A stretch of DNA of 45,384 nucleotides from Flavobacteriales bacterium (GTDB lineage: Bacteria; Bacteroidota; Bacteroidia; Flavobacteriales_D; Sanyastnellaceae). This document shows, one piece after another, positions 23,301 through 44,200 of this stretch. How positions within the stretch are numbered: the stretch's first letter is position 1; every line of letters starts with the position of its first letter. The notes beneath the pieces are model-generated. The model was given only the letters and a program-made list of their open reading frames with translations. It made no database searches and was not told the origin of the DNA. The stretch lies in NCBI GenBank assembly GCA_947442505.1, contig CANEVR010000013.1, forward strand, positions 1 to 45,384, read 5' to 3'. A program made the position numbers and the translations under genes.

Positions 23301-26300
23301 CTACCTAACCACCAACATTCGTTGTGACTCTTGCATTGAACCCTGTTGGATTCTGATTTCATACAAACCACTGCTCAATGCTTGAGCAAATCGCCATTCG
23401 CGTTGTTTGTATTCCTCCACATTCCATGTTGTCTTTTCTAACAACCTGCCTGTTGCATCCAATAACTCGATATTGACATCACCTTCCATTCCTTCGAGGT
23501 TGATGGTGATTCCTTCACCCTGATTGGGATTGGGGTAAATCAACATTCTACTTTTCCATTGTTGTGTTGTGGGATCTTCATTATCGATAACCGGAGCTCC
23601 TGCAAATCCATACGTCCGCATGCATTGTGTTGAGCCGTAATTGCTCTGCGTCTGTTGATCCACATGCAATGATGCGATGCGCACATTGTATTGCTGATTG
23701 GTATTGATTCCAGGTATTGTATTGATAGAAAAAACACGCGATCCTCCGACAGGTCCATTTACTACCTGGGGCAAACCAGGTGAGGGCGCATTCATCGTCA
23801 GCTGCCAAATGTACCTGCTTGTTCCACACACACTGCGATTGGTCGCCATGGATCCTGTAGTAGGACTTTTGTAAACTGGGCAACGATCTGTTGTTCTTAA
23901 GTTCAAATCGGCTTCCGCATTCAACGTAAACACCCCTGGTGTGACGCCATATCCCACTACCTGCTCCGTATTGCCATAGGCATCCTTTAAGGCATAATGC
24001 GCATCCACCTTCACCGTGTGTTGAATTGGTGCATTGTTGATATTGGCTCCAACCAACTTACCAAGTTGCACTACCGTGGTGGCATTGCTCGTTGTGGTGG
24101 GTGCTGTGGAGTAAATCCAGTTCGCTGTTCCTTGTGCAATGTTCCCATTCCACAAGTTAAACGTATAGTAAGAAGCCCCTGGTTTGAATTTGCACTTGAA
24201 GTTTTGGCAAGTACTGCCATACGTATTGGAATAGTTGGTGTAGGCGCCGATGTCCATTGCGCTTCCCCTAAGGTAAGCCATTCTCAGTGATGATGATCCG
24301 TAGTTGTTGTTCAAGTTTCGCACGCAAATCCAATACATTGTACCCACCTCGAGTTGATCATAATACAACACCTCATTTCCTCCGTCCGTTGAGATACCCA
24401 TGTTAGTGGGTGTTACATCATTTTCAATATCCAATGGAATCAAAGCCTGACCGGTGGTGGTTGTATAATCATACAACGACAAGTCATTGTCATCTCCGAC
24501 AGATGTGCTGCCCATCAGCTCCAATCGAATGGCATTGGCTTGAGCTGTGAATTGGTACCAACGATCTATACCCGTTCCTGTTGACTCGACGTTGTCAGCA
24601 CCCAAACCAAAATTGATGGCCAATGTGGTTTGCGTTCCTGTTCCATAGTTGCCGATAGAAATCACATTCACTGTATTCAAATCACCATTGCCTGGACAAA
24701 TCAAATCTGACCCTGAACAGTCCTCATCAATGCCATTTCCGCAAATCTCTGCCGCGCCAGGTTTAATGGCTGCGTTATTGTTATTGCAATCGGTGTTGAC
24801 AACAGAGTAACCCGCAGGGGCGATGGATGCAGACTGCGCGCAAACAGGAGTCAGCACATTCCCAGCACCATAGCCATCTCCATCTGAATCGGTATAGAAA
24901 TTAAATAGGGAATTCATCAAAGGGTTGGCATCATTGCAATCTCCTCCAACCGCAGAACTGCCTGGGGTCCCTGGACATCCCATCACTGTAATTGCTGAAT
25001 TTCCGAAACCATCACCATCCGCATCCTGATAAAGCACGGCCAAAGCTTGATCAGGGTTGGCATACGTCGGACAATTGTCGCAGACATTTCCTATTCCATC
25101 GGCATCAGAATCCAATTGGTCGGCATTGGCTATCAAGTAACAATTGTCCAACAAGTTTATAGTACCATCGGCATCATAGTCTTCCTCCACACATGGAAAA
25201 TTCAAGGCCAAAATCGCAGAAGTAGAAGAGCCGCACTGGTTGGCCGCTGTTATTGACAATGAACCTGAGGAGGCCAAAACATTCTCAAATGTTATTGAAG
25301 CATTATTGGTGTTGTTACCTGTAAGCAAGGCCGCTCCAGTGGGCATGTTCCAAGTATAGAACACCGCATTCTCCACAGGGTTGATGTAATAGGCCTCTGG
25401 ACCATCATAGGGACAAACAACCTGAAGTCCTGATAAATTCTCAGTTACTACTGGCTGCTCCAATATTGTCAAATGATACAACGAAGGTTCACTGTAGCAT
25501 CCTGGCTCATTGCCCAATGCTTGCACCCAATAAAAACCACTGTCTTGGATACTCAAATTTGTTCTGTTCCAACTATTCCCAACATGGGTCTGCAGACCAT
25601 TGGGCGAAGTCCACCTTAAGCTATAGCTATTATTCTGAGCGACAAAATTGTAAGTGCTTCCCAAACAAGCTTGACCAGCATTGATGGTATCACCCAAAGC
25701 ATTCAATGTCAAAGCAGGAGCAGCTGGTGGAAAACAAGTATTGAACACAGCTGTTTTGGTAATGCTCCATTTTCCGAACGAATCTTTAACGCGCATTGAA
25801 ATCTTATGATTACCAGGACCCAAAGCTGCACAGCTGATTGAATAGGTTTCAGTAATCAAAGTATCACTCGCAGTTAATGGCAATGAAACACCATTGGTTA
25901 CGCCTGGATCTGAATTATCAAAGAAATACTCCACCTCAGTAATATCAGGCAACTCTGAAACGGCTTCGATTTGCGCCGGACTAATATAGACGGGCATCGT
26001 GCGGGTAATCCCCCATTTGCCTTCTGTATTAATCATCCTTATTGACAACAAATGATAACCCGCCGGAAGTCCTGTGGTAGCAATGTTTGCAAAAGCATTC
26101 ACAGGAGAACCTTGTGTAATGAAAATATCAGTTCCATTTCCCGCTCCGGGGTCTGTAGTACCCCAGAAGAACTCACCCCTCACTAAGCCACCGTTCACAA
26201 TTGTATTGTCCACTACAACACTTAATGTTTCAGGACAAAATCCATCGGTAACCGTTACCGAATAATTTCCGGCCAATACCGATGCAATGATGGGCGTTGT

Positions 26301-29300
26301 TGCTCCACTGGACCACGAATAATCATAAGCCGGTGTAGAACCTCCTGTTACAATCACACCTGCGCTACCATTGCTCAAACCATTGGTAGACGAACTAAAT
26401 GCTGGATTCAACACCAAAGATGGCCTAACCAAAACAAAGACAGAATTGGTCTGAACCCAAACGCCGTTGGCGGTTTGAAAAGTACAATTGTATACGCCTG
26501 TTTCTGACACCACAATACTTGAAGTCACTGCAGCATTGCTCCAAATATAATTGGACCCAATTGGCGCCGTCAATTGCGTACTGTCTCCTTCGCAAATTTC
26601 TAAAGCCCCATTGACGGAGAGTGTCGCTGAAGGATTTGCCCCCACGGTAATCAGCTGAGAAGCGGTCGATGTACAAGTTGCATTTCCGTTGTTGACTTGT
26701 AAAACAACCAAATAATTTCCAGGATTGACAAAGCTGTGCGCAGCATATTCACCAGTAGATTCATAAATACCATCACCATTCCAATCCCAAGAATACACGG
26801 AACTCAACAAAGTATTGGTAGATGTATTGACTACTGAAATATTCGTGTTTTGATTACTACCTGTTAAATCAAATGAAACTACTGGTACAGGACAAGTTGG
26901 GGCAACCACTTGAATGTTAGAAACCTTGGTATGGGACCAAATACCCCACTGATCCTTTACGCGAACGGACAATTTATGAGCGCCAACAGCAAGTCCTGCC
27001 GTATTGATGGACGCTGATGAATTCACACTGGTTCCAATTGGGATATCCGCGGCTATGCCATTTCCTACTCCTGGATCTGAACCACCAAAGAAATATTCCA
27101 TGGCCACGATTGGGAATTGAAAATCTGGTAAGTTGGGCGGCAGAACAAATTCGATGATGAACATGCTTCGCGCGATCATGCCCCATCGTCCATCTGCATC
27201 TTGAAAACGAACATAAACAAAGTGTACCCCAGAATTTAATCCTGTTGTGTTAATGGAAATGGATTCCAAAACATTCACTCCTGGATTGCTTACGGCAAAA
27301 GAAACTGCGTTTCCAGCACCGGGATCATTGTTATCAAAGAAATACTCCCCTCGAATCAAATTGTCCGCCGGAGTATTCTGCGAAAGGGCATTGGGATCCC
27401 AAACCATAAAAGGCATCGGTCGTGAAAAACCCCATTCCCATTGGGCATCCATGGTTCTCACAAACAACGTGTGATAGCCCGCGGCTAAGTTAATGGGCAC
27501 ATTTACGTAAGACAGTACCGGAGTTCCTTGAGCAATCATCATGGATATTCCATTTCCTACACCTGGATCTGTATCAAAATAATACTCAGCTGCGATGATA
27601 CCTGTCAACGGTTGAATCACAGTATTGCCCACTTGTACATTCAGTGTTTGAGGACAGACTCCATCAGAAACCGTAACTGTATAGTTAGCTGAAGCAACGG
27701 CTGTTATTGCTGGAGTGTTGACACCATTGCTCCAATTATAAGAATAAACATTTCCACTTCCCCCAGACAATTGTACCAAAGCGCCTCCGTTCGACAAACC
27801 ATTGGTAGCGTTCGCTACAGTGGTGACGACATCTATCGAAGGGATAACCAAAACCTCAAGCGATGTCGAAAAAACATAATTCCCATTCAGATCAATATAT
27901 GCGCACTGATACAAACCAGATTCAGTTACCAACAGTGAATCCGCCTGTGAAAAATCATTCCAAATAAAACCAGTTCCCGCAGGGGCATATAATACAACTT
28001 GATTTCCTTGACAAAAAGTCAATGGTCCATTCGCCAGCAAAACATTACTCAACGGATTTCCAACTTGAATGGTCTGAAGGACGCTGGATTGACAATTGAC
28101 AGCATTGCTCACGGTGAGCATAACATCATGCCACCCTGAATTTGCAAAAGTATGTAACGCATTTTGGGTTGTATAATCAATAATTCCATTGGCATCGATA
28201 TCCCAAGAATAAGTTGCTCCTGCAACTGTTCCCGTTGAGGTTGAAGTCAACGTCAATTGATTCAAGCTGCTCTCTGCAGTTACAAAGTTGGCCTGTGGCA
28301 ATGAACAAGGATTGGTTATGGTAATGAATGACGTTTTGGTAGTACTCCAAACTCCTGACAAATCTTTCACTCTAATATTTAATCGGTGAGTTCCGATGGT
28401 CAATCCCGCAGTATTAATAACGCGATTCACATTCAAGCTAGAATCCACTGGTACTGAAATGGGGATACCATTTCCTTGTCCAGGATCTACATTGTCATAG
28501 AAATACTCTGCTGCAACCATTGGGGATTGCAATGGAGATAAAGTAGGTGGCAATACATAATCAATCAAAAACACAGTAGTTCTGGTTATACCCCAATCGC
28601 CATGACTATCTTGCATACGCACCGAAACCTTATGATATCCTGGTGATAAGCTTGCAAGCGAAATGTTGTTAGCGGTAAAACTCAAAGCTGTATTGGCATT
28701 AAACACAACAGGAATTCCGTTGCCTGTGCCAGGATCAACATTATCAAAAAACAATTCACCATGTACCATATCCAATGTATCATAACTCACTGGATTGGTA
28801 TAATCAGGTTTGATGTGAATCCAATGTGTTTTGGTCATGGACCAAGACTGATCAGTGTGTCGCGTTCTAACAGACAAAAGATGGAAACCTATAGCAAGTC
28901 CCGTTGTGGGAACATCAAATGCTCCACCAGTTGTAAGCGCGTTCATGGGAACCAAGAAGGAAATACCATTGCCAATACCAGGGTCCACATTGCCATAAAA
29001 AAACTCTGCTTCAATAAATCCAATAGGTGGATTAACAACCACATTGATCATTGGGAAGGTTAAAGATTGTGGGCAATACCCATCTGAAACATTCACCGTG
29101 TATGTACCGCCGGAAAGTTGAGTCAAACCAGCTGTGGTATTGCCATTGTTCCAAGCATAAGTGTAAACAGGAAAAGAACCTCCTGTAACGCTGAGAAAAA
29201 CACTTCCATTATTGTTGCCGTTTGTGGGTTGATAAACGGAAGGAGTAACAACAGGAGTAGGTCTAACCAAAACATCTTTTTGAACTGAAGCGATGCTGTA

Positions 29301-30851
29301 CGCTCCAAAATTCATCACACACTGGTATGAACCCGTCTCTGTAACAACAATGCTTTGGGTGGTTTCACCCGTATTCCAATAATAAGAACTGGCCAATGGC
29401 GCAGTTAATATCACGCTGGAGCCAGAGCAAAATTCCAAGGGGCCATTGGCGGAAAGTTGAAGATTAAATACTGGACCTACAGGTATCTCATGAACCTTGG
29501 TCGAAGCATACATCTCTTGCCAAAGGTTCTGAACTTCAACAGCACTCAATATTGTATCAAAAAACAACACATCATCTAACTGCGTAGCACTTGGTCCCAA
29601 TTGAATTTGATTTACTACCAAGCCAATATTGTTTGATGTGCTGGTTTGGGTCAATGTACCGTCAATGTAAGTTTTAACATCCGAACCATTCACCACCAAG
29701 GCGACATGTCTCCACTGACCATTATACAAACCATTGACACCATTGTTGTAACTGTTTGCATACACCGAATACCCATTGGACCAACGGTGATAACCGTCTA
29801 GGTCAATTCCGTTGTACTTCAATGCACTTGAACCAAGTTGAATGGATGTGCCAGTGTTGCTATTTCCTTTCATCCAGTAGGAAATGGTGTATTGACTATT
29901 CAATTGACTGCTTGAACCTGTGGCATTCAGAGCTGTGGCAGGATGATTGGGAGCTCCGCTCAAATCACCTTGACGACCATACTGCCACTGAGTAGATCCT
30001 GACAAATTCCCCAACAAACCTCCTGCATCAACTAGTGAGGCATTGGTAAAATAATACCGCATATCCGCACTTTGCGCAAGCGATGAAGGAGGATTACAAA
30101 CTGTCAAGGCAACATGTTTGTATCCTGCTGTGCTGTAGGCGTGATTTGCGTTGGTAGTGCTGGCATCTGCGGCTCCGTCTGAATCAAAATCCCATTCATA
30201 GATTGCACCTGGCAAGGCGCCAGTAACTTGGGAAGTCATGGAAATACTCTGATTCAAAGCTGCAGGATATGGACTCAATGTAAAGTCCACATTGGCCACA
30301 TTGGCGCTGGCAGGCCACACTTGAACAGACTTAGATTTTGTGATTCCCCATCTTCCATCGAGGTCCTGAGCACGCACATTGAGTATGTGCAAACCAGCAG
30401 TGCTTGGAGCAATGACTGAAAAAGTGGAAACGATATTGTTACCCGCCGGGATGTAAAAAGGTATTCCATTTCCGCAGCCAATGTCTGCATCCCAAAAATA
30501 TTCAGCAGCCACAATAGGCATACTCAACACTTGATCTGGAAAAGGAAAGAAAGGTTGATTGATATAAATCTTGTGCGTACCCGTTATACCCCAATGACCA
30601 AATTGATCTTGAAAGCGCATGGAAAAAAAATGAAAACCAGGCGCCAAACCATTGGCAGGGGCATTAAAGGTAATGGTAGGATTGGAAAACTGAGGATTGA
30701 CGTAGATCAATGTACCGAAACCTTCTCCAGGATCGTTATCAAAGAAATATTCACCCTTGGTCAATAGCTGAGCCGTTGCATTTCCTGACAATAGGATGCA
30801 CGCCCAAACAATCCAAAGCTTTACGCGTTGGGGAATCACTTTTTCTATCAA
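23301..30851 (-). CDS. Giant multidomain T9SS-exported protein with ten 'DPG-GNG' repeats
   Basis: The 2516-residue product has no ATG near its start. TTG at 30851, two bases after the previous stop, or GTG at 30839 both lead into the signal peptide LWIVWACILLSGNATAQ. An unnamed ~75-residue repeat (AEYFFD-DPG-GNG ... GxHxLxVRxxDxxGxWSxTK) occurs about ten times, in groups of 2, 3, 3 and 2 (near residues 33, 116, 614, 697, 782, 1087, 1169, 1249, 1559, 1640). Three PKD domains (about 190, 855, 1320), a LamG-like domain (267-440), Ig-like and SprB-like segments lie between groups. Then come thrombospondin-3-like and MopE-like acidic motifs (1890-2050), a module of unknown type (2060-2420) and a T9SS type A sorting domain. 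It is probably a surface adhesin; its partner is unknown. Confidence 0.9.
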   Translation of the reverse strand: MIEKVIPQRVKLWIVWACILLSGNATAQLLTKGEYFFDNDPGEGFGTLIYVNPQFSNPTITFNAPANGLAPGFHFFSMRFQDQFGHWGITGTHKIYINQPFFPFPDQVLSMPIVAAEYFWDADIGCGNGIPFYIPAGNNIVSTFSVIAPSTAGLHILNVRAQDLDGRWGITKSKSVQVWPASANVANVDFTLSPYPAALNQSISMTSQVTGALPGAIYEWDFDSDGAADASTTNANHAYSTAGYKHVALTVCNPPSSLAQSADMRYYFTNASLVDAGGLLGNLSGSTQWQYGRQGDLSGAPNHPATALNATGSSSQLNSQYTISYWMKGNSNTGTSIQLGSSALKYNGIDLDGYHRWSNGYSVYANSYNNGVNGLYNGQWRHVALVVNGSDVKTYIDGTLTQTSTSNNIGLVVNQIQLGPSATQLDDVLFFDTILSAVEVQNLWQEMYASTKVHEIPVGPVFNLQLSANGPLEFCSGSSVILTAPLASSYYWNTGETTQSIVVTETGSYQCVMNFGAYSIASVQKDVLVRPTPVVTPSVYQPTNGNNNGSVFLSVTGGSFPVYTYAWNNGNTTAGLTQLSGGTYTVNVSDGYCPQSLTFPMINVVVNPPIGFIEAEFFYGNVDPGIGNGISFLVPMNALTTGGAFDVPTTGLAIGFHLLSVRTRHTDQSWSMTKTHWIHIKPDYTNPVSYDTLDMVHGELFFDNVDPGTGNGIPVVFNANTALSFTANNISLASLSPGYHKVSVRMQDSHGDWGITRTTVFLIDYVLPPTLSPLQSPMVAAEYFYDNVDPGQGNGIPISVPVDSSLNVNRVINTAGLTIGTHRLNIRVKDLSGVWSTTKTSFITITNPCSLPQANFVTAESSLNQLTLTSTSTGTVAGATYSWDIDANGIIDYTTQNALHTFANSGWHDVMLTVSNAVNCQSSVLQTIQVGNPLSNVLLANGPLTFCQGNQVVLYAPAGTGFIWNDFSQADSLLVTESGLYQCAYIDLNGNYVFSTSLEVLVIPSIDVVTTVANATNGLSNGGALVQLSGGSGNVYSYNWSNGVNTPAITAVASANYTVTVSDGVCPQTLNVQVGNTVIQPLTGIIAAEYYFDTDPGVGNGISMMIAQGTPVLSYVNVPINLAAGYHTLFVRTMDAQWEWGFSRPMPFMVWDPNALSQNTPADNLIRGEYFFDNNDPGAGNAVSFAVSNPGVNVLESISINTTGLNSGVHFVYVRFQDADGRWGMIARSMFIIEFVLPPNLPDFQFPIVAMEYFFGGSDPGVGNGIAADIPIGTSVNSSASINTAGLAVGAHKLSVRVKDQWGIWSHTKVSNIQVVAPTCPVPVVSFDLTGSNQNTNISVVNTSTNTLLSSVYSWDWNGDGIYESTGEYAAHSFVNPGNYLVVLQVNNGNATCTSTASQLITVGANPSATLSVNGALEICEGDSTQLTAPIGSNYIWSNAAVTSSIVVSETGVYNCTFQTANGVWVQTNSVFVLVRPSLVLNPAFSSSTNGLSNGSAGVIVTGGSTPAYDYSWSSGATTPIIASVLAGNYSVTVTDGFCPETLSVVVDNTIVNGGLVRGEFFWGTTDPGAGNGTDIFITQGSPVNAFANIATTGLPAGYHLLSIRMINTEGKWGITRTMPVYISPAQIEAVSELPDITEVEYFFDNSDPGVTNGVSLPLTASDTLITETYSISCAALGPGNHKISMRVKDSFGKWSITKTAVFNTCFPPAAPALTLNALGDTINAGQACLGSTYNFVAQNNSYSLRWTSPNGLQTHVGNSWNRTNLSIQDSGFYWVQALGNEPGCYSEPSLYHLTILEQPVVTENLSGLQVVCPYDGPEAYYINPVENAVFYTWNMPTGAALLTGNNTNNASITFENVLASSGSLSITAANQCGSSTSAILALNFPCVEEDYDADGTINLLDNCYLIANADQLDSDADGIGNVCDNCPTYANPDQALAVLYQDADGDGFGNSAITVMGCPGTPGSSAVGGDCNDANPLMNSLFNFYTDSDGDGYGAGNVLTPVCAQSASIAPAGYSVVNTDCNNNNAAIKPGAAEICGNGIDEDCSGSDLICPGNGDLNTVNVISIGNYGTGTQTTLAINFGLGADNVESTGTGIDRWYQFTAQANAIRLELMGSTSVGDDNDLSLYDYTTTTGQALIPLDIENDVTPTNMGISTDGGNEVLYYDQLEVGTMYWICVRNLNNNYGSSSLRMAYLRGSAMDIGAYTNYSNTYGSTCQNFKCKFKPGASYYTFNLWNGNIAQGTANWIYSTAPTTTSNATTVVQLGKLVGANINNAPIQHTVKVDAHYALKDAYGNTEQVVGYGVTPGVFTLNAEADLNLRTTDRCPVYKSPTTGSMATNRSVCGTSRYIWQLTMNAPSPGLPQVVNGPVGGSRVFSINTIPGINTNQQYNVRIASLHVDQQTQSNYGSTQCMRTYGFAGAPVIDNEDPTTQQWKSRMLIYPNPNQGEGITINLEGMEGDVNIELLDATGRLLEKTTWNVEEYKQREWRFAQALSSGLYEIRIQQGSMQESQRMLVVR
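25917..30770 (-). repeat. Ten-copy 'DPG-GNG' coding repeat in four groups
   Basis: Within the 2516-residue protein the recognisable unit starts [AGV]E[YF][FYW][FYWD], then D-x-DPGxGNG, and ends xxGxHxLxxRxxDxxGxWxxTKT. Copies lie near 30755, 30505, 29010, 28760, 28505, 27590, 27345, 27105, 26175 and 25930 on the minus strand. They form units of two or three, each separated by a PKD-Ig-SprB block. I do not recall a named family for it. Confidence 0.8.
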
Positions 30852-30853
30852 AA

Positions 30854-31993
30854 TTAATCGCGGCTAACCGCTTGAATATTGATTTGCAACGTTCCGCCAA
30901 CTGGGACAGAAGAGACAGGAATTGTCAATGCTGTCACCGCTGGAATCTTGGCGTACTTATGCAATTGGGTCACTGGAGCATTACCACTGTTGATGCCGAT
31001 ATCTGTTCCATTGGTACCTGTTCCCAAAGCTGGAGATCCTGCTTGCAATGCATAATTATGCGCCCATGCAAATTCAGCTCCCAAAGCGGGATAAGTAGTG
31101 AACAATGGATTCTGGTTGACAATATTTCCACTTCCAATACTATTCGCGGGGGGAAGGGTATTCACATTGCATAGGTAAGTCAAATTGTTGTTGAATGTGC
31201 AATTGGTTACGTATGGATTGGAAGAATTGAGCAACTCAGCCTTATACCAAATGTTATTCTCGAAAACACCTTCTTGCAATTGGTAAAGTGAATAGTAGCT
31301 ATTGTTGAGGAACAAGCAATTTCTCACTACCAAATTTCCATTCATATCCAAACCTCCACTTCCGGAAATCCCAGAGTAGTTTCCAGTAAACACACAATTG
31401 GTTACTATTACATTTGAATAAGGTCCCAAAATAGGATCACAACTACCCACGCTATTAGAACCCATAAAATATAAATTACTACCCCCATATTCACTGAATA
31501 GACAATTTCTAAAAGTTAGATTGCTCATATTCCAATTGGCATAGATGTAGGAGTAGTTCACCTTACATCTTTCGAAAATGATATTACTCATTGTTTGTTG
31601 AGATGGACTTGAGCCGGAAAAAGAAGAATTGATGGACAAAGAATATACTTTACATCCATAAACACGTGTACCACTTGCCGACAATGAACTATTGAATCTA
31701 CCCAAGGTAAGGCCATAGATATCCGTTTGTGGAAAAGTACCACCAGCTTCAATGCCTTCACCAAAAATTACCAAAGGCTTCACAATGGTTGCTCCGGGGT
31801 AGTATTGCGTTGTTGATCCTGTCACCAAAAGGGTATCATTGGGAGAAGCTGCATCAACTGCGGCTTGAAGTGCAGTGTATTGCGCAGGACGATTGGGATC
31901 ATTGCTAACGGTCCAAACCGTAGCCATCATGTTCATTGTGGTTGTCACAAAAACAACCATCATTAATAGTTTTGAGGACACTGAAATTTTCAT
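30854..31993 (-). CDS. Secreted right-handed beta-helix protein
   Basis: From the ATG at 31993 the product has 379 residues with a signal peptide (MKISVSSKLLMMVVFVTTTM). A longer in-frame start at 32080 would run through the upstream terminator and hide the signal, so I reject it. The N-terminal block (VWTVSNDPNRPAQYTALQAAVD, then NDTLLVTGST) is the entry motif of many Bacteroidota parallel beta-helix proteins. Repeated N-C-x-F/N-N-x-L strands (TNCVFTGNYSG, VRNCLFLNNSY) fill the centre. Unlike its two neighbours it has no sorting domain at its C-terminus (LQINIQAVSRD), so it may stay periplasmic or leave by another route. Its stop is two bases before the start of the 2516-residue gene: these two are co-transcribed. 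Confidence 0.85.
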   Translation of the reverse strand: MKISVSSKLLMMVVFVTTTMNMMATVWTVSNDPNRPAQYTALQAAVDAASPNDTLLVTGSTTQYYPGATIVKPLVIFGEGIEAGGTFPQTDIYGLTLGRFNSSLSASGTRVYGCKVYSLSINSSFSGSSPSQQTMSNIIFERCKVNYSYIYANWNMSNLTFRNCLFSEYGGSNLYFMGSNSVGSCDPILGPYSNVIVTNCVFTGNYSGISGSGGLDMNGNLVVRNCLFLNNSYYSLYQLQEGVFENNIWYKAELLNSSNPYVTNCTFNNNLTYLCNVNTLPPANSIGSGNIVNQNPLFTTYPALGAEFAWAHNYALQAGSPALGTGTNGTDIGINSGNAPVTQLHKYAKIPAVTALTIPVSSVPVGGTLQINIQAVSRD

Positions 31994-32067
31994 CTTTACT
32001 TTTTTGGTAAACCTATACCTCAAGCAATTGGAAAACAATACTCCTTTAGTACCAATTTCAATCCAAC

Positions 32068-32213
32068 AAAAAACCCTCATCTCTCGACGGGGGTTTTTCT
32101 CAAAAAGTAATATTTACATTATCGATTCACCACCATGCGCATGGTTTGGCTTTGCTGACCATTGGTCAATTCCACCAAATACAATCCATTGCTCAAAGTG
32201 TAATCAAAATTCA
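32068..32213. repeat. 3' cassette duplicate A (terminator plus sorting-domain end)
   Basis: Bases 32078-32213 are identical to 45249-45384, with one A indel and one C/T change in the stem just outside. The shared block starts at an ATCCAACAAA border just beyond the terminator (32061/45231) and continues past the window edge. See duplicate B. Confidence 0.95.
32069..32098 (-). terminator. Terminator with ATCTCTCGAC loop, copy 2
   Basis: A ten-pair stem (AAAAACCCTC/GGGGGTTTTT with one G-T pair) encloses ATCTCTCGAC, 21 bases after the stop of the 4350-residue gene. It separates that gene from the beta-helix gene. Together with the 3' end of the gene it is repeated almost exactly at 45240-45269. 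Confidence 0.82.
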
Positions 32214-35200
32214 AATTGGTGTTCAAACTTCCCTCAACAGCATATTGACTGCGCTGAATCAATTTGCCTGTGGCGTCTGTTACTTTTACTTGCAACATGC
32301 CCTCCATTCCGTTGACATTTAAAGCAACAACATTTCCTTCATTGGGATTGGGGTAGATACTGGCTGTGATGCCATTGAAAGAGCGCTCTGCAATAACACC
32401 TTCATTCTCGAGGGTTGGCATACCAGCGGATCCCATGGTCCTTACACATTTTACCGAACCCCAAACTGTTGATGTCACATTATCAATATGATTGGATCTC
32501 ATTTGCACATCATATCGCTGTCCATTAGAGATTCCTGGAACCTGCGCCAAGCTCAATACTCTTGACCCACCCAATGGACCAGAAACCAAATTAGGCAATG
32601 ATACGGTTGGTGCTTGCATGGCAAAATTCCAATCATAATTCTTCGTTCCACAAACACTTCTGTTGGTCGCTACAGAGCCATGTACAGGACTTTTGAATAT
32701 TGGACATTGATCCGTTATCCTTACAAACAGGTCTGACTCTGTGGCCAAACCAACAACACCTGTAGCATTGGCACGCCCGACAATCCAATTACTGTTGCCA
32801 TAGGCATCCTTAAGCTGATAGGTGACATCAACAGAGATATTCAAATTCTGGTTAGCCCCTGTCAAATTAGCACCCGTAATTTTACCCAATTGACAAACGG
32901 TACTTGCCACTCCGTTCACTGAATAACTCAAATTTGGGATGCTATATGCCCATTCTGGGTTGCCATTCATCACTGCACTATACCATCTGTGAACGGTGTA
33001 TTGATAAGCATTTGGTCTAAACCTTGCCTTGAAATTCTGACATGTGTTATTGTAAATACCCGTATAACTCGTATAAGGCATAATGTCCGGAGCACTGCCG
33101 TATAAATAGGAAACGGTCAGCAAACCTGTTCCATAAACATCATTGGTATTCTGGATGCAGATGTAGTATGTTGAACCAACATTTAACTGGTCAAAATACA
33201 ATATCTCACTTCCTCCATCTGCATTCAGCGATCCAACATCTCCTGGATGAACATCATCTTCAATGATCAATGGAATCCATTGCATTGCAAAATCATCATT
33301 ATGATCATAGAGCATCAAACGGTTGTCATCTGTCAAACTCAAAGAACCGCGATAAGCAATACGGACGGCATTAGTTTGGGCTGTAAACTGATACCAATTG
33401 TCCACACCATCTCCATCAGATTGGATATCATTCACACCCAAATTTTGATTAACATTGATATTGGTTTGTACACCAGTTCCCCACTGCCCAATGTTGGATA
33501 TACTATTGGCTATTCCTGGGCCTGTATCCGCGCAATCCAAATCACCATTCAAACAATCATCATCCCAGCCGTTGCTGCAGGCTTCCACGCCCAAAGGATT
33601 TGCGCTGGCATTGTTATCGGCGCAATCCAAGGCATTCAAAACATAACCTACGCCTGGATCTGAACAGAATCCCAAGGCGCTTCCTGCGCCGAACCCATCA
33701 AAATCAGCATCTACAAAATACATCGTAGCGGGAGAAACCTCAACAAAAGCGGTATCTGTACATGTCTGAATGCCACTGGTGACAATCAAAACAAAGGTGC
33801 TATCGACATTGGGATTAGTATTGATGGAAGCCTGATTTTGGAGTCCATTGACTTGCCATTGATAACTCAGCATATCCCCTCCACCATAAGAAGTATTCAC
33901 TGTTACCGAATTACCTTGACAAATAGAATCAGCACTCAAAACCAAATCGCAGATTAACTCATGCTCCAAATGCAAATGAACAATTGAATCGCATCCTGAA
34001 ATTGATGAAAAAATCTCAGTATAATCTCCAGGGATACTGATCAATTGAGTCCCCAAAATATAAACAGAATCACTGGGTACAATGGATGTCAAATAAACAG
34101 TATCAACAGGATTTACTGTAATCAAAATGGAATCAATGCAAGAGAAGCCATTATTGCTGTAGATCAAGGTATACACCGTAGAACTTGTGGGTTGAACTTG
34201 CACAATGGCATCGGTTTGTCCCGTGCTCCAGATCAAAGGATTGGACTTATAAATATCAATTTCGAAATTATCGATTGCCCATGATTCATCACATAGTTCT
34301 TGACCGTTGTATTGATTAATTCTAAAATGAATACTATCCGAATCATCCTGCATTCTATAAGTAAAGCGGTAATAAGGATAACATGTGCTTGTAGAAGCGC
34401 AATAACCATTTGCACAACCTTGATTGACAAACATTGAATTGCTGCATCCACCTGAGTTGAAAACCGCACTGGCGACCAATGAATCGTTGATATATACTTC
34501 AAAAGGCTCAGCATAATCCCAAGTATCATAAGGATAAAGATCAAATGAAACTTCAATGGAGTCATGATCAATCAATGGCAACTGATACTCCAAATCAACA
34601 TTTGCAAATGGTCCCAAAACAGTATCACCATTAATAAACGTATTGCTACCCACACTCCATTCTGCATCGACCATTGTCATATCTAAATTTTTTACATTGC
34701 TCCAATTGCTTTGAGCAATCAGTTCAACCGTTCCGCCTTCACAAACCACTGTAGATGATGATTGAACCAATGGATTTAGGAAAGAAACATAAATGCTATC
34801 TAATCTAGAACACACACCTTCTAGCGCTGTAACATTAACCCAGTCATCCGTATGAATAAGAACTGAATCAGCTTCCAAATTGTCATTCCATACCAAATCA
34901 AAATCAACAACATCCGCAGCGAGCATCACTTCATTTCCGCAAACACCCATACTATCCAAATCAAGCAATGACAAAGGAATTGTATTGGGTTGAACTTCGA
35001 TATAAACGCTATCCCAACATTCAAAACCATTCCTAGACACTTTTAAACTGATCCATTGACTACTGGTCAGGTTTGGAGAAATAATATTGGAGACCTCTCC
35101 AGTGGACCAAAGAATATCCACATTGGAAACAGGAACAAAGGTGTAATAGTTCAGCAAACCTGGTGATCCATTTCCACCAAATCTTGAATCACCTTGTTTT

Positions 35201-38200
35201 CCGCCCATTCCTCCATCAACAAGAGAGGGAACATTGACATTTTCAGAATAAAAGCAAACGGTACCACCGCTTCCACCACCACCACCACCTGTCTCTCCAA
35301 ATCCATCGTTTCCAGATTCTCCTATAGACTCAACCAATCCATTGCCGGAGATCTCCGGTGTGTGAATCAAAATAATTCCACCCCCATTTCCGCCAGCACC
35401 TCCACCATCTGGATTGTCGCCATCTTGCCCCCCTGATCCACCACCTGAACCCAAATAAATACCTTCTACATTCATCAATCCTTCTCCTCCGTATCCACTT
35501 GTGGTGCAATCACCTGTTGCCCATCCACCTCCACATTGCATACAAGGAGCTCCACCATTGCCCCCTGGCATGACTAATCCTCCGCCTCCGCCTCCTTGTC
35601 CGCTATGACACCATTCAGCATTTCCTCCACCTCCACCTGCTCCATTGGAAAGATAGGTACCTGTTCCATTTGAAACTGCTGAAGCTCCTTGATTACCCAC
35701 ACCCCATGAGGTTAGGGCACTTCCACCTGCAAATCCTTTTCCATTTGCTTCAATTTTACCATTGTCATTTATTACAACTCCTTGTTCTGCATAAAATGCA
35801 ATGACTCCACCCACAGAACCATTCCATGGTTCGCAAGTAACAACTCCATTTACTATCATTTGATCATAGTGCAGTATTTTCAGCACTTGAGCCTTAGCAT
35901 TGGCGTCACCCACAAAATCACTCGACAACGGCAGCTGCAATTCCATGATTCCATCTCCAATGGCTTGAATAAAATTGTACTGATATTCGCCCGCATTGGC
36001 GCCCTGCATTTGCAAAAGAATAACATGATCACCTCCTTCAAATCCGTATTCATTGTCTATTTGCACAGCATTTTGTCCTATGGCATTAAAGCTCAAAATG
36101 GCAGACTTGACACCATCAACAAATAAGGTATCCCCATTGAAAACGGTGATATCCCCAAGAGAGGATATATTGCTCGCACCCAACAATAAATTGGCTTCCG
36201 TCTGTTCACAAATCAAGGTATCGTTGGTGAAAATTTCCGCCTTTAATATTTCTACCCAAACGCTATCATAGACAGAGCAAAAAGCATTGGACAATGAAGC
36301 GAAATACCAACCTGAATTATCCATGACTGCAAGGGAATCAAAATTTCCATGTTCCCAATTGTATTCATAATTTGAAAACGGCAACTGAATCACCGCGGTA
36401 TCACCACAAAATCCCATGGTATCCGATGCGATAAAATTCAATGGAATATCATGTTGCACGACATTGAATGAAATGGATTCTGAACAAGTCACTCCATCGA
36501 CAATAGATACAGCATTGATTGAAGAGGATGCCAATAGCGTTGCAGTCCAAGAATCTTCACTTGTTGCATCTGGCCATGTTATGGTTCCTTGACCCAAATT
36601 TTGCGCATTGATATTAACCGTCATACCCTCACAAATGGTAAACGGAACATTGGCATTTAACACAACTTTATTCAATGTTAAATTTAAATACACAGTAGAA
36701 TCGCAACCTGCGCTATTCTCACCAACCCAAGTATAAATTCCAGACTCGTAATAGGTCTCTCCATTCAAATCCCAAGTAAATTCATCACAGCTTGTTTCGA
36801 ATTGGTTGCTAAAATTGGAAAGAACTTGTATTGTAGCCGTATTACTGTACAATACCGTATTACTCGTTGTGATTTTAACCTTGTAATTGGCTTGGTGGCT
36901 ATAACCCACCGAATTGTAAATCAATACAGATTGATTGGCCCCTGGAATCAGTACATTATTCTTATACCATTGATACTGAATATTGGGACCATAGGCTTGA
37001 ACAAATAAAACAACCATATCACCCAAACAAGCCACTTCTGAAGTAGGATGCATTAAGATTGCAGTTCCGTTGGCATTGGCAGTGATGGCCACATTTTGAC
37101 TTATCGTATTGGAGCAACCGGTTGCCGGATCAGTGTATTGATATTGAATAACAGTGTTATTCTGATTGGGAATAGACATTGGGTTAAAAATGTTCCCCAT
37201 CACTCCTGCGCCGCTATAACTGCCGCCATAAGGTTCTCCCACCAAATAAATATTTCCTACATTTCTGGGATAACTCGAAAGTAAATTCAAAGTCAACTGC
37301 GGTGTCTCATATACTTCTACGATGCTCACAGCCGTATCACTGCAGCCCAGCGCATTGCTCACAACCAAAGTAATCTCATAGTCATTGGGTAGGGCGTATT
37401 GATGAGTTGGATTCTCATTGGTAGAGGCAAAACCATCTCCAAAATCCCAACTGTAATCAAACGCGCTTCCATAATCTACGGTACTGTTTTCAATATTGAT
37501 AGGAGCTCCATTGCAATGATTGAAAGCTGAAAATTGGGCAATCGGCGTTTCATTCATGAATATTGAATCACCAAATTCAGTGTAACATTCCTGATCAGAA
37601 TATGCTCGCACCGTTGCATAATAAGTCAAAGAATTGGGGTATAAATATTGAATTTGTGCAGGCAATATCAAACTGCTATCTCCAGTACCAAAATCCCATT
37701 CATATTGTGTTATTGCACCTCCAGGAACATAAGCCGTAGCGTTGAATAAAACAGGCTCATTTGAGCATCCTGCAGTGTAATCAAAAGTTACAACGGGAGA
37801 CTCAGCCGTCTTTCTCAAAACACGCAATGTATCATTGTTCATGTTATCATCACCGTTGTTCAGCAACCATATTTTAAAGAAATAGGCTCCATCATCAGAC
37901 AAATCTTCAGTGTCATTAAACGTAAACTCGATATCGTTATTGATGGAACCTGGAACAACATCATACTTCACGGGTCCATTATTGATTTGGTAGGCCAACT
38001 CAATATTCTGAAAAGGGATATCCCCAAATTGTCTGAGCAAAATGGTCACAGGTTCTGCACTGGTATGCTCACACGCATTGCTTGGACTTAGCAATTCAGA
38101 AATACCAAAATCAACCATAAATTCTTCAGCGCCAATATCAGGTGCTTGTTGATTTCTGATTTCATTCTCAATATCTAATACAATACCTCCGGATGCGATT

Positions 38201-41200
38201 CCTGCTCCGTTCAACTGCTTTTGATATGGTAAAAAAGACGTGCTTGATTCATAATACGGATTTAACTCCAAAGAATTGACATCGCCATTCACAACCGATG
38301 ACCATTGGCCCATTTGCGCATAAGATTGATTGGCAAAAAAACCAAAATGATCCCCACTTGAGTGGTAGTTATTAAAGTCAAAATTCTTCTGCGAAGGCAT
38401 GTTTACAATGTAAACGGCGTAACCTCCACCGGTATTAGAGAAAATATTGTCCTTGATCAAATAATTGTTTCCTCCCAAAATCTCCAATGCACGACCATTG
38501 ATCACATTGGTCCCTGTAATGGAAACACTATTGAAGACAATTTTAGAATTGCTTCCATTCGATCTTAAACTGATTCCCTTGGCATTTCCTGTTCCTTTGG
38601 CATGAACAAAATTATTGGCTACCACATGTTGATTGCCACTGACAACAATGCCATTTCCAGCCTCCGTGTCAAAAATACGATTTGAATCAAATCTCACTTT
38701 TCGACCATCGAGTGTCGCACCATTGTCTCGGACATTCTTAATGATATTTCTTGTAATCTTCCAATTGGATTGGTTGGGAGAATTAGAGTAAATTCCATGA
38801 TTCTGCACCAATTCCACCACATTGCTATCACAAAGCAATGTTGTGGTTACACCATTCAAGGATATGCCAACTCCTTTTTTGTTGGGCACAATGGATAAAC
38901 CATTGATGGCATTTCGAGTCACAGATATACTATCCCCATCACTGACTTGAATACCAACAAATGTCTCTAATTCAGACCAATTTTGATCTGGGTTGCGACC
39001 AATCACATTTTGATCTATGGTCACATTCCTTGAATTGGAACCAATCAACACCCCATAACTTGTCGTATTTCCTGCCTCATTGGATAAAATATCGTTGCCG
39101 CTCAGAACGGCATCTCTAGAAGCAATCAATTCTATTCCTCTGTTATCATACCCCTCCCTCATTGTGACTACATTGTCTTGAACAACAACATCTCGACATC
39201 CTTCTATTCTAATCCCTTGGTCACCGTTGTTCCATTCTAGATGATAAATATTATTGTCCAACAATTGAATATTCCGACTGGAATACACATGCATTCTGCG
39301 GAAGAAATTGTTAGACATCAGTGCATTCTGAGCATTGGTCACAGAACAATAAACCGCATGACCATATCCAGAAACAGAACCCTTATTGTCAACAATTACC
39401 AGAGGATCTGCATTGTTCACTTCCAAACTTGAAAGGACATTGCCTTGAAAAATAAACCTCCCTCTATCGCTTCCTGCAGGTGACTTAATGATCACATCCT
39501 TTCCTTCAATGTTGTTGTTATAAAAAACAAAAGAGCTATCTACAGAGGTTTCTGGAGAAAACACTTTAGATAATCGGCAATGACTGAAATGCAGATTGTG
39601 ACAACCCTGTGAAATCAAAAAGGCCATGTCCCCATTTTCTCTTTGAACAGTGATATTCTCAAAGTGGATATAGTCCGTCCCGATAAGATTGATTGTAAAA
39701 TCCGAAGCCAAATCCGGTTCTGAATAGCGGATTCCAGCCAAAGAAGAATCGGCATTCTCTCCTCTAAAAGTTACTGTATTGTAAGAAGAAGATCCTGGTA
39801 TTTGAGTAAGAAAAATATGCTCATTAAAAATCGTATCTCGTACATCAAAAATCACTGGACATGCAATACCCGCATTGTTCAATAAAATTGAAACATCCGT
39901 GAAGTTGGTAAAATCTGGATCATTACCCCCGATGGTGTAATACCCGCACATTTGGGTACCAAAGTCAATGGCCGAACAAGTATCATTGTAATGATTGCAA
40001 TCAACAAGACCATTGACAGTTGTGGTCCAAGCTTTAAATTTGTAGGCCTTACCAGACTCAAAAGTTACTGATCCTATATTAACATCTACACTTGACAAAG
40101 ACGTTAGATTTCCTGACCAGTTAAAAGGAGTCTGTGCAACGCCATTTACTGTCCAATAAACCATGGTACTCGTCAAATTGGTTGAACCATGATTCCTCAA
40201 TCTCACTTGTATACTCTGATTGGAAACGGGCAGCGGATTGACCAAACCAAGAAAGGATTCTACACCAGCATCTTTTGGACAAAGACCAAACTCCTTAATC
40301 CCCATATCAGGAGCAACACCTCTGTTAACTCCGATAATATCTTGCGAAACTCCCGTACCGGCTATCCCCATATTGTTCAGCATCCCGTGATTAACATACA
40401 ATAAGGTATCGGAACTGTAAAAGGGATTAAAGGTTTTTCCATGAACTTCCCAACCATGTGCTGCGCTAAAATCAGCTATCGAAGCAAAATCCTCTGCCAA
40501 ATAATAGGCTACCTTATCCCGACTACTGTAATAATCATTATAATCTAGAACCATGCTTGAAACAGGCGCTGAAATCGATAAGGCATAACCGCCTCCTTGA
40601 TTTGAAAAAACATTGTTCTTTAGTTCAACCTCCGTCCCATCTTCAATCATTAAAGCCGCGGCATTAACAATATCCCTGGACAATACTTGAACGCTGTTGA
40701 ACAAGACTTTGGAACCCGTTGCATCACCCCGAATAACAATTCCATTGGCAATCCCTATACCGACAGTATGAACTGCATTATTGGAAACCAATGCTGAGTC
40801 GCCGTCAATTGTAATACCATTTCCCCCTTTGACATAAGTGATTGTATTGCCATTGACCAAACAACCATGGCTTTCTATCAGAATACCATTATTCTTTACA
40901 TGCTCTATTTTATTGGAACGCACCCTCCAATTGTTGGATGCCGAAGGGTACAACTCAATTCCCGCATCCATGATGTTCTTAACAAGATTGCTATCGACAT
41001 CTAAGGTATTCATGCCTCCTACAATCGATATTCCGATACCACTGGTATTCTCAGAAATGCCTTCAATTAGATTGTGCTTGACAAAAACAGAGTCAGATGC
41101 ACCATGAACAGCAATGCAATAATTCAATTGATTGCCTATCCCATCCAATGGTCGGCGAACCTGATTGTGTTCCAAATGTATGCCGGATGACTGGCCACCA

Positions 41201-44200
41201 CTGATCAAAATACCAAAAGATGTATTGCAGCTGCTTCTAGAATATACATCATTGAAAACAAATTGAACCTCTTGTGAATTGCCAATCTCCACAGCTTTGG
41301 TGTTACAACCGTCATTCATAAATACCAGATTATCCTGAACAAAAGCTTGCGCGCAATTCAATAATCCCAATACGCGTGTATCCGACTCTCCTCCATTTCG
41401 AATAAAGTTATCTTGAATGTCAACTATGGTATCACTCTGCAAATTCAACAACCACAATCGATTCTGAGCAATTTGAACATTCCTTGATTTTTCAATGTAT
41501 GCCACTGTCCTTGAATCTTCAACCAGGGTATCCAATACCGCTCTATTACCATATAAGACCACGCTATCTGCATTGCTCACACTGATGGAAGCAATAATGT
41601 TATTTTCAAAAACGGCAGCTCCACGTACCACACCATCAGGATTTGAAATGGAAACTCCAAAACCAGGCTGATTAGACATTAAGCTTCTAAATGAATTGCC
41701 TACAAAATACAAATCCTTATTGTTGCTGTTGTTTAATGTTACAACATTACTTAAACGACAATGGCTAAAGTGTATATCTTCAGATTCCCCCTCAATTTTA
41801 ACCGCAGTTGACCCATTTCTATAAATGGTTAGATCTTGAAAATAAAGGTGTTTGGTTCCAAACAAATTCAAAGTAAAATCATTCTCAGAATTAATTCCTG
41901 AATACTTCCATTGCGCCAAGGAACTATCTGCTGACTGCCCTCTAAAAGTAATTGTATTGATTTCAGAAGATCCTGCAACTTCATAAAGTGTTGCCTGTTC
42001 ATTGTACACCCCATTTCTGACATCAAAAACAATTGGACAAGTGATTACAGAATTATTCAACGCTTCAATGGCCTCATTGAAGTTTAAGAAATCAGGATTG
42101 GATCCGCCAATGGTATAATTTCCACACAATGGGGTAGCAACATATACACTTGATGAATCATTGATTAAATTACAATCAGCCAGTCCATTGGGCAGAGCTG
42201 TCCAAACTTCAATGTTGTATTGGCTAGCAGATGCAAAATTAAAACTGCCCAAACTCACTGGGCTGGTTTGCGCTGTGCTCAAGGATCCAGTCCAATTAAA
42301 TGTGGGCATTGCTACATTATTGACACTCCAACGGATTTGAACATTGTTTAAGTTTGATTGACCATGATTTTGCAACAAGACTTGAATAACTTGGGTTCCT
42401 ACTTGCACCGAGCCCGATAGATTTAAAATTTCAGAGATCCCAGCATCCTGGGCACATGGTGTAAACTCCTTTGCGCCAATATCAGGCAACGACGCGCGGA
42501 GTGTATAATCTATGTCACTTGTCACCAAGGGATCAGATATGGCAGCTTGATTCAACTCTACATGATTCGGTTTTAGATTGGATATACTCTGATAATAAGG
42601 ATTCACAGATACCGAATGTTCATCGAGTCCTGTCTGGGTTTTGTGGTCTTCAAAGGAGTTTAACATCTGCGTTCCATAACTTCCAAACACAGCCCCTTGG
42701 GTTCTTAGATTGTTATAATCCATCGCATTATTGGCCGGTATAAAATCCAAACCCATTGAAATGGCCAAGCCCTTCTTGGCATTGTAAATCGAGTTGCTTT
42801 TTATTGCATTGTTGGTCCCTCCGTTCAGCTCAATCCCTACAGCTGTAAATAAATTAGTCGCTGTCAAGTAAATACTATTGTGTAGGACATGATTATTACT
42901 TGATGCTGAGCCAATGCTCAACCCCTTTGCCAATCCGGCTCCTTCCACATGAGCAAAATTATTGGCAACCAAATTCTCAGACCCTAGAACATTAATTCCC
43001 ACACCTGCTTTAACTCTAGAAATTTTATTTCCTACGATTGAACTACCGGAGCCTGAAACAATAACCCCAGCTTCGCGAACTGTTGAAATCGTGTTCTTTC
43101 TCACTTTCCAAGTTGTACCAAAAGCAGAATTGACCTCTATACCTGAATTTTGAAAATTACTGATTACGTTGCTGTCCGCCTCTAAGGTGAAATAACTTCC
43201 GCCCAAGAACATTCCTTTGCCTCTTTTCAAACCATTGATGGTTAAACCATTCAGCTCATTGGATTTAATGTAAATACTATCTCCTCCTCCATCGGTATAT
43301 ATACCAATAAACGTATCCTCGGAATCAGGACCATAATTAAAAGATCTGGAAATATTGTTGTCACGCAAAGATATTCTCCTCGAATTACCACCTCCAAGGT
43401 GAATTCCCAATGGCATTCCACAATCCCCGGTCATTAAAATTTCATTCTCGGCCACAACACCATCCTGAACATCGATTAATCGTACCCCTCTAGAATCACA
43501 TCCACTCAAAGACTTCAGTTGATTATTCAGAACAAAAACAGTATCACAACCTTCAACATTTACCAAATAATCAGCACTTTGCAATTTGTTGTTCTGCATG
43601 TTGACATCTCGACAATTCACAAAATCAACCCTTCGACTTCTGTTGTCTTCTACAACAACCTGATCACAACCTTCTACTTTATAAAAACCAGTGTAGTTGC
43701 TGGTATCTGCGCTAAACTGATTACCATTTAAATATACAGGGCCGGCGTTATTGATATAGATGTCACCAACCCAACAATCCTCTACCAAAATAGCTCCATG
43801 ATCGGCATCGGCAGGCTGTCTGATGTCAATCGCACTTCCATTCAAATGTGTACCAACAATAGAAATCGAGTAGTTATTTGACTCTTCGGACGCTTCTATT
43901 TTCCCCGTGTTGCAATGATCAAAAAAGATGTTATTGGCTCCGCTTTGAAGGATAACATCACTCGAACCATTGGTTCTCAAAATACCCAAGTCTTTGAATT
44001 TGATGAAACTTGTGCCAGACAGGCTCAAAGTATAATCATTGGGATTAACATCTTGATAATGTAGCGCTGCCAGTGAACTATCTGCAGATTGTCCCTTGAA
44101 GGTAACCCACTTATTGGCAGCAGTTCCTGCAACGTTGTTGATGAGAATCTGCTCATTGTAAACACCGTCCCTAACATTGAAAAAAACATTGCAAGTTACC

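Follow-up and report, generated by a model that had tools for sequence, protein, structure and literature searches.

The stretch of DNA analyzed here (the window, 45384 bases) is the entire contig C13 of the source genome G000, a Flavobacteriales bacterium assembly of 2.64 Mb in 106 contigs. Two giant open reading frames (ORFs) on its minus strand, with a 408-amino-acid (aa) ORF between them, encode proteins of 2516 and 4350 aa that were read as cargo of the type IX secretion system (T9SS). Their N-terminal parts (heads) are built differently, and both proteins end in the same conserved module followed by a T9SS sorting domain. This module, its predicted fold, its distribution and its possible role are described below; the coordinates of all features are given in Table 1.

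When the last 506 residues of the 2516-aa protein were used as a query, the 4350-aa protein was found with a domain E value of 2.4e-140 over query residues 4-505, and the two proteins are homologous throughout their last ~460 residues. The modules themselves are homologous over their full length with 47% identity, and the shared phrases on which the initial annotation of this DNA had based a whole-length alignment were seen again in ours. At least four conserved cysteines had been counted there; among the 14 modules of G000 there were 34 invariant columns, including exactly four cysteines (reference residues 158, 267, 285, and 353), which are retained in 99, 88, 99, and 67% of 76 family rows, respectively. 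The sorting domain reported at the end of both proteins was recovered with PF18962 and TIGR04183, each above its cut-off (27 and 23 bits, respectively). Two other statements held in part. The heads are unrelated in overall architecture but not in their individual domains, as PKD domains are present in both and head-versus-head BLASTP (one alignment per pair, E ≤ 1e-5) listed a sole alignment of 72 columns with 39% identity in the acidic region adjoining the module. The MopE-like motif ascribed to both proteins passed the cut-off in the 2516-aa protein and stayed below it in the 4350-aa protein.

The fold of the module was modeled with AlphaFold2 for both copies using 21 alignment rows, the 2516-aa copy together with its sorting domain. 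Mean predicted local distance difference test scores were 79.0 (2516-aa copy) and 83.6 (4350-aa copy). In structural alignments of the models, the first ~140 module residues superposed on pre-peptidase C-terminal (PPC) and collagen-binding domains and the last ~100 on fibronectin type III (Fn3) domains. The first domain of the 4350-aa copy was matched, besides 5iku, by the ColG collagen-binding domain 2o8o (Z 11.9, root mean square deviation [rmsd] 2.1, 100 aligned residues). Together with 5sv5 for the other copy, these predicted likenesses agree with the earlier suggestion of a jelly-roll or pre-peptidase-type first half. The second half, which could not be named at that time, is now assigned to a diverged pair of Fn3-like domains, because the AlphaFold2 models of both copies predict it. 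The profile of the second of these (Fn3-2) aligned to tandem repeats of L148, a protein from another family of the class, with 97.8% and E 9.1e-13 for one comparison. The middle domain (Fn3-1) appears to be Fn3-like as well, judged from two-domain Fn3 matches to the models, a similar strand pattern and a match between its profile and that of Fn3-2 in the 76-row family alignment (94.9%, single-comparison E 4.3e-8); an internal repeat test with the 14 G000 rows alone gave 0.9% probability and no Fn3-1/Fn3-2 relation. PDB sequence-profile matches, namely, 3wcy (E 0.0066, 50 positions, within Fn3-2) and two rows with E > 1, were not relied on. In short, the models predict three domains, a PPC/collagen-binding-type beta-sandwich and, after it, a diverged pair of Fn3-like domains.

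Several results weigh against this assignment. No Pfam or NCBIfam family matched the module directly when both window proteins were searched and all 14 copies were scanned with Pfam, and a strong match of the full module to a named family, the outcome that the initial annotation had set against its own idea, did not appear in either library. The PPC family PF04151 had five matches in G000 at E ≤ 10, none of them a module, and none in the 14-copy scan at E ≤ 1. Likewise, PF23759 (GBD_T9SS_assoc) had four matches in G000 at E ≤ 10 without a module among them and found none in the 14-copy scan, while PF00041 (fn3) scored in a single copy of the 14 in G000, with 12.4 bits against a cut-off of 25, and in one member of the 14-copy scan, at E 0.093. 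Structural Z values lay between 8 and 12, a middling range for beta-sandwiches, and the middle ~120 residues were covered by two-domain Fn3 rows alone, with rmsd of ~9 to 15. The G000 copies remain below the Pfam cut-offs, and the parts are therefore called PPC-like and Fn3-like. Relatives of the PPC-like third overlap matches to PF23759 and PF04151.

Table 1. Positions of the two giant genes, the parts of their C-terminal assembly and the sorting-domain palindromes. Positions refer to the window unless a contig is named.
Feature	Position	Strand	Evidence
2516-aa T9SS cargo protein P0001: GEYFFDNDPG-type repeats, PKD, laminin-G-like, SprB, TSP3, MopE, module, sorting domain	23301..30851	-	
T9SS type A sorting domain, 2516-aa protein	23313..23540	-	PF18962 35.7 bits, TIGR04183 26.7 bits
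Entire shared module, 2516-aa protein residues 2058-2421	23589..24680	-	alignment
Fn3-like domain 2 (predicted), 2516-aa residues 2313-2415	23607..23915	-	2ibb Z 9.2, rmsd 2.8, 94 aligned; L148 profile match
Fn3-like domain 1 (predicted), 2516-aa residues 2196-2312	23916..24266	-	model strands; Fn3-pair matches only, large rmsd; profile match to Fn3-2
PPC/collagen-binding-type beta-sandwich (predicted), 2516-aa residues 2054-2195	24267..24692	-	AlphaFold2 model; 5sv5 Z 10.4, rmsd 2.8, 104 aligned
MopE-type acidic metal-binding motif, 2516-aa residues 2021-2048	24708..24791	-	PF11617 36.1 bits, above cut-off
4350-aa T9SS cargo protein P0002: beta-helix repeats, PKD, module, sorting domain	32119..45171	-	
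T9SS type A sorting domain, 4350-aa protein	32128..32358	-	PF18962 38.8 bits, TIGR04183 40.0 bits
Entire shared module, 4350-aa protein residues 3886-4253	32413..33516	-	alignment
Fn3-like domain 2 (predicted), 4350-aa residues 4147-4249	32425..32733	-	2xyc Z 9.7, rmsd 2.3, 88 aligned
Fn3-like domain 1 (predicted), 4350-aa residues 4024-4146	32734..33102	-	model strands; Fn3 pairs e.g. 1qr4, 9a3v, rmsd > 11
PPC/collagen-binding-type domain (predicted), 4350-aa residues 3884-4022	33106..33522	-	5iku (ColG s3as3b) Z 12.3, rmsd 2.6, 103 aligned
Weak MopE-type motif, 4350-aa residues 3849-3875	33547..33627	-	PF11617 14.3 bits, E 0.05, below cut-off
Sorting-domain palindromes: L018, L015, L017, L019	G000:C5:58792, C22:1826, C26:25297, C60:14533		

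Searching G000 with the C-terminal 399 residues of the 2516-aa protein returned 15 places, 14 of which contain the whole module; the fifteenth, on C25, lacks the module but contains MopE-like repeats and a sorting domain. A sorting domain was found after each of the 14 modules, and all 14 exceeded the TIGR04183 cut-off, two of them only when in-frame neighbors were counted. The position of the module was then evaluated in 82 module-bearing frames from G000 and 17 related genomes (76, plus 6 recovered with the HMMER filters off); matches in G003, G004, G005, G007, G011, G022, and G026, as well as some in other genomes, were left out of this test. Nearly all frames (81/82) cover more than 250 model positions, and three run off the fetched stretch or the contig. 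In all 79 frames with a complete 3' end, 89-159 residues separate the module from the stop codon and the tail matches TIGR04183 at E ≤ 0.01 (73/73 and 6/6). In these frames, the module was always found directly before a T9SS domain and after varied N termini, which the initial annotation had named as support for its idea, and a full module away from a T9SS domain, which it had named as the contrary outcome, did not occur among the fetched frames. The MopE motif upstream of the module is usual, not obligatory: of 75 stretches, each 60 to 150 residues long and taken from upstream of the module in 76 frames, 51 matched PF11617 at E ≤ 0.01, and L012 and L015 of G000 had no match at this threshold. 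One 4773-aa frame (L074, G016:C33) carries two modules in tandem, then one sorting domain.

The constant place of the module directly before the sorting domain in 79/79 frames would also be expected if the module belonged to a longer secretion or targeting signal for large cargo or for a particular shuttle, and a region of more than 200 residues is reportedly needed in type B C-terminal domains (CTDs), according to excerpts of PMC10202324. The tails of the module proteins, however, fit the type A model, and type A CTDs are reportedly recognized by a single shuttle, PorV (PMC12618676). TIGR04183 had 96 matches in G000 (95 above the cut-off), of which 14 follow a module and 82 are without a full module. 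A general export role of the module is unlikely because of these 82, and this part of the earlier proposal of a surface-attachment or export-assisting stalk with varying heads is not upheld, whereas its stalk-like assembly and varied N termini are. A module-free frame of 2439 aa carries a sorting-domain match (C25:21973-22191), and size alone therefore does not demand the module; ORFs of 943 and 967 aa are among those with the module. A signal function of the module for large cargo or a particular shuttle is on balance very improbable. The second half of the module was also matched in part (positions 205-355) at G000:C51:2130-2606, inside a 971-aa frame with a sorting domain; this is a possible relative without the PPC-like part.

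The distribution of the module was analyzed in relatives of G000 and in samples of the class and phylum. At E ≤ 0.001, matches were obtained in 35 of 60 sampled relatives, namely, G000 itself, all six genomes of the same genus, 18/30 from other genera of the family, and 10/23 from other families of the order; the last were weak, with a best E of 8.5e-8. In the phylum sample, at least 9 of 395 genomes matched; two belong to the window's family and span the module, and the other seven match in the first third only. Within the class sample, the first third was found in at least 95 of 247 genomes and the second half in at least 15 of 247, outside the family mostly as the Fn3-2 part. In G100, outside the family, nearly the entire second half was matched (E 1.6e-6). 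The counts are lower bounds because limited candidates were scored per genome, up to 16 for the first third, 11 for the second half, and 5 in the phylum search, which recovers 5 of the 14 copies in G000 itself. The parts of the module are widespread, and the whole assembly was seen only in the window's taxonomic family among the genomes sampled. A scan of named genomes gave 19 further module loci, three of them running off the 3' end, which overlap partly with the sampled relatives and so were not added to the 82 frames. The metagenome-assembled genome (MAG) CAMCTV, titled Chryseobacterium gleum (L055, L057, L059, L060, L066, and L067), has the same modules as Flavobacteriales MAGs, and its label is probably wrong. 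Isolate codes, read as abbreviations of lakes and reservoirs, allow the guess that the source is freshwater plankton.

The heads joined to the module in G000 contain seven starch-binding-type carbohydrate-binding module stretches (C2), laminin-G-like domains (C62, C26, C5, and the window), a C-type lectin domain (C5), GEVED and fn3 (C40), Ig_7 (C43), and MopE arrays (C51 and C56, with twelve MopE stretches in C56). The window heads include beta-helix and PKD domains, and the heads on C22, C60, and C56 are truncated by contig ends. Most alignments between G000 heads fall in the MopE-like part; C62 and C26 have nearly the entire head in common (941 columns, 49%).

A tree of 35 fetched modules from four genomes showed two well-supported groups, each with seven G000 copies and both represented in all four genomes. 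Modules in the best pairs between G000 and G002 (n = 7) are 87-97% identical, compared to mostly less than 65% for the best paralogue matches inside G000; a younger cluster (C62, C5, C22, and C26) reached 71-88%. From these identities and the tree, the module appears to have multiplied in an old paralogue expansion that predates the split of these genus members. Heads, compared minus the last 170 residues before the module, diverged faster than the modules in L013/L114 (module 89%, head ~45%) and slower in L010/L120 (module 57%, head 77%). Recent free shuffling of modules under heads was rejected as the main pattern, with related heads in five of the seven G000-G002 pairs; in the remaining two the G002 frame is cut and the heads are not alignable. 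Hints of shuffling were seen in L016/L018, with modules at 88% and heads at ~45% over 294 aa, and in G006_L130, whose head is like that of L010 and whose module, placed in an unresolved fork, is not part of the supported L010 clade. Recent gene conversion across the whole C-terminal part was not supported: the most similar pair, C62/C5, has a DNA identity of 83%, and of 66% when four-fold sites are counted.

Taking the predicted fold, position, and heads together, we consider the module to be probably (probability of about 0.72) a three-domain membrane-proximal C-terminal stalk of anchored adhesin-like T9SS proteins. The stalk would connect the variable head, in many cases preceded by a MopE-type acidic linker, to the type A sorting domain. 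Genes for the T9SS machinery were found in G000, with SprA on C6 (2434.8 bits) and PorU on C38 (1211.3 bits). According to excerpts of PMC10202324, PorU cleaves off type A sorting domains and the C terminus of the mature protein is attached to surface lipopolysaccharide; for Prevotella intermedia, PMC11969387 places the cut in the linker that separates the CTD from the last folded domain ahead of it. From this published type A model, as far as it is given in these excerpts, it follows that the module would become the membrane-proximal part. The protein would cross the outer membrane via its sorting domain, which the sortase PorU would remove by a cut in the linker behind Fn3-2, leaving a mature protein linked to surface lipopolysaccharide through the end of Fn3-2. 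The module would then serve as a spacer holding the adhesin- or lectin-like heads off the surface, and its PPC-like domain may add glycan or matrix binding. Cleavage, anchoring, the spacer role, adhesion, and any calcium dependence are steps that we infer.

Against the stalk, the module could be a binding unit instead of a spacer, with the PPC/collagen-binding-like domain and the Fn3 pair binding glycan, matrix, or algal polymer and the heads adding specificity. ColG collagen-binding domains are the top fold matches of the first domain in the 4350-aa copy (Z 11.6 to 12.3), the paralogous modules of G000 have diverged, mostly to less than 65% identity, and large proteins from other families carry PPC-like relatives in repeated form; of three such proteins examined, two had a sorting-domain match. 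Fold likeness is no proof of binding, however, and the module adjoins the anchor, while the recognized carbohydrate-binding and lectin domains sit in the heads; we regard binding by the module itself as unlikely. A further idea, which we put forward as a doubtful conjecture, is that one Flavobacteriales family uses the module as its dedicated adaptor rather than as a generic spacer, with a PPC-Fn3-Fn3 anchor fixing different adhesins in one surface arrangement and the two ancient module subclasses marking two sets of surface structures.

The module is a searchable signature for paralogous surface proteins, 14 in G000, whose recognizable heads are mostly repeats and binding domains. If it is a fixed membrane-proximal part, specificity should be looked for in the heads, and one Flavobacteriales family could be surveyed for adhesion targets.

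Around the two giant genes, the arrangement of the 4350-aa, 408-aa, and 2516-aa genes suggests an operon, as they share a strand and are separated by 38 and 2 bases. The 408-aa protein had no NCBIfam match and no Pfam match above the cut-off. The gliding protein model AgmC_N (NF047640) aligned to residues 3054-3338 of the 4350-aa protein with 75.8 bits, far under its cut-off of 275. Elsewhere in the window, at 2867-8280, a pair of adjacent, overlapping ORFs each contains FG-GAP and UnbV_ASPIC domains. The palindrome GTAGGGGCGAAT-N4-ATTCGCCC occurs eight times in G000 and not in a reversed control; four of the eight copies lie in frame within the sorting-domain coding part of module proteins and read RRGExIFAQ. 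A second palindrome-like stretch is located in the linker between module and sorting domain of four paralogues (C26, C62, C5, and C22).

In comparison to known systems, the first third of the module has the same predicted fold as PPC (PF04151) and the clostridial ColG domains s3a and s3b, with 14-18% identity to these chains; unlike them, the module continues into two Fn3-like domains and a T9SS tag. GBD_T9SS_assoc is linked to it via intermediates only, as the first-third relatives L137, L139, and L141 at the class level match this family at overlapping residues. L148 has tandem Fn3-like repeats and ends in PF18962, like the module before its sorting domain, and scored 45.2 bits with PF00041 over the whole protein, with no single stretch passing E 0.1. 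Its repeats are near identical in the part seen (the 5' end is cut) and it has no PPC-like match, whereas the module consists of two diverged domains in its Fn3-like part. The cytophagalysin CPL1, as far as described in excerpts of PMC11674741, has predicted Ig-like domains, one of them an Fn3, preceding the last T9SS-CTD-like domain. It differs in being a metallopeptidase whose status as T9SS cargo its authors leave to be determined, and in those excerpts no PPC-Fn3-Fn3 cassette common to many heads was found for it. A literature search over titles and abstract openings, with most subscription journals outside its coverage, found no description of this assembly. Known are thus the beta-sandwich types and T9SS surface proteins with Ig- or Fn3-like domains before the CTD; new is the fixed PPC-Fn3-Fn3 combination, which is conserved, unnamed in the libraries searched, and family specific as far as sampled.

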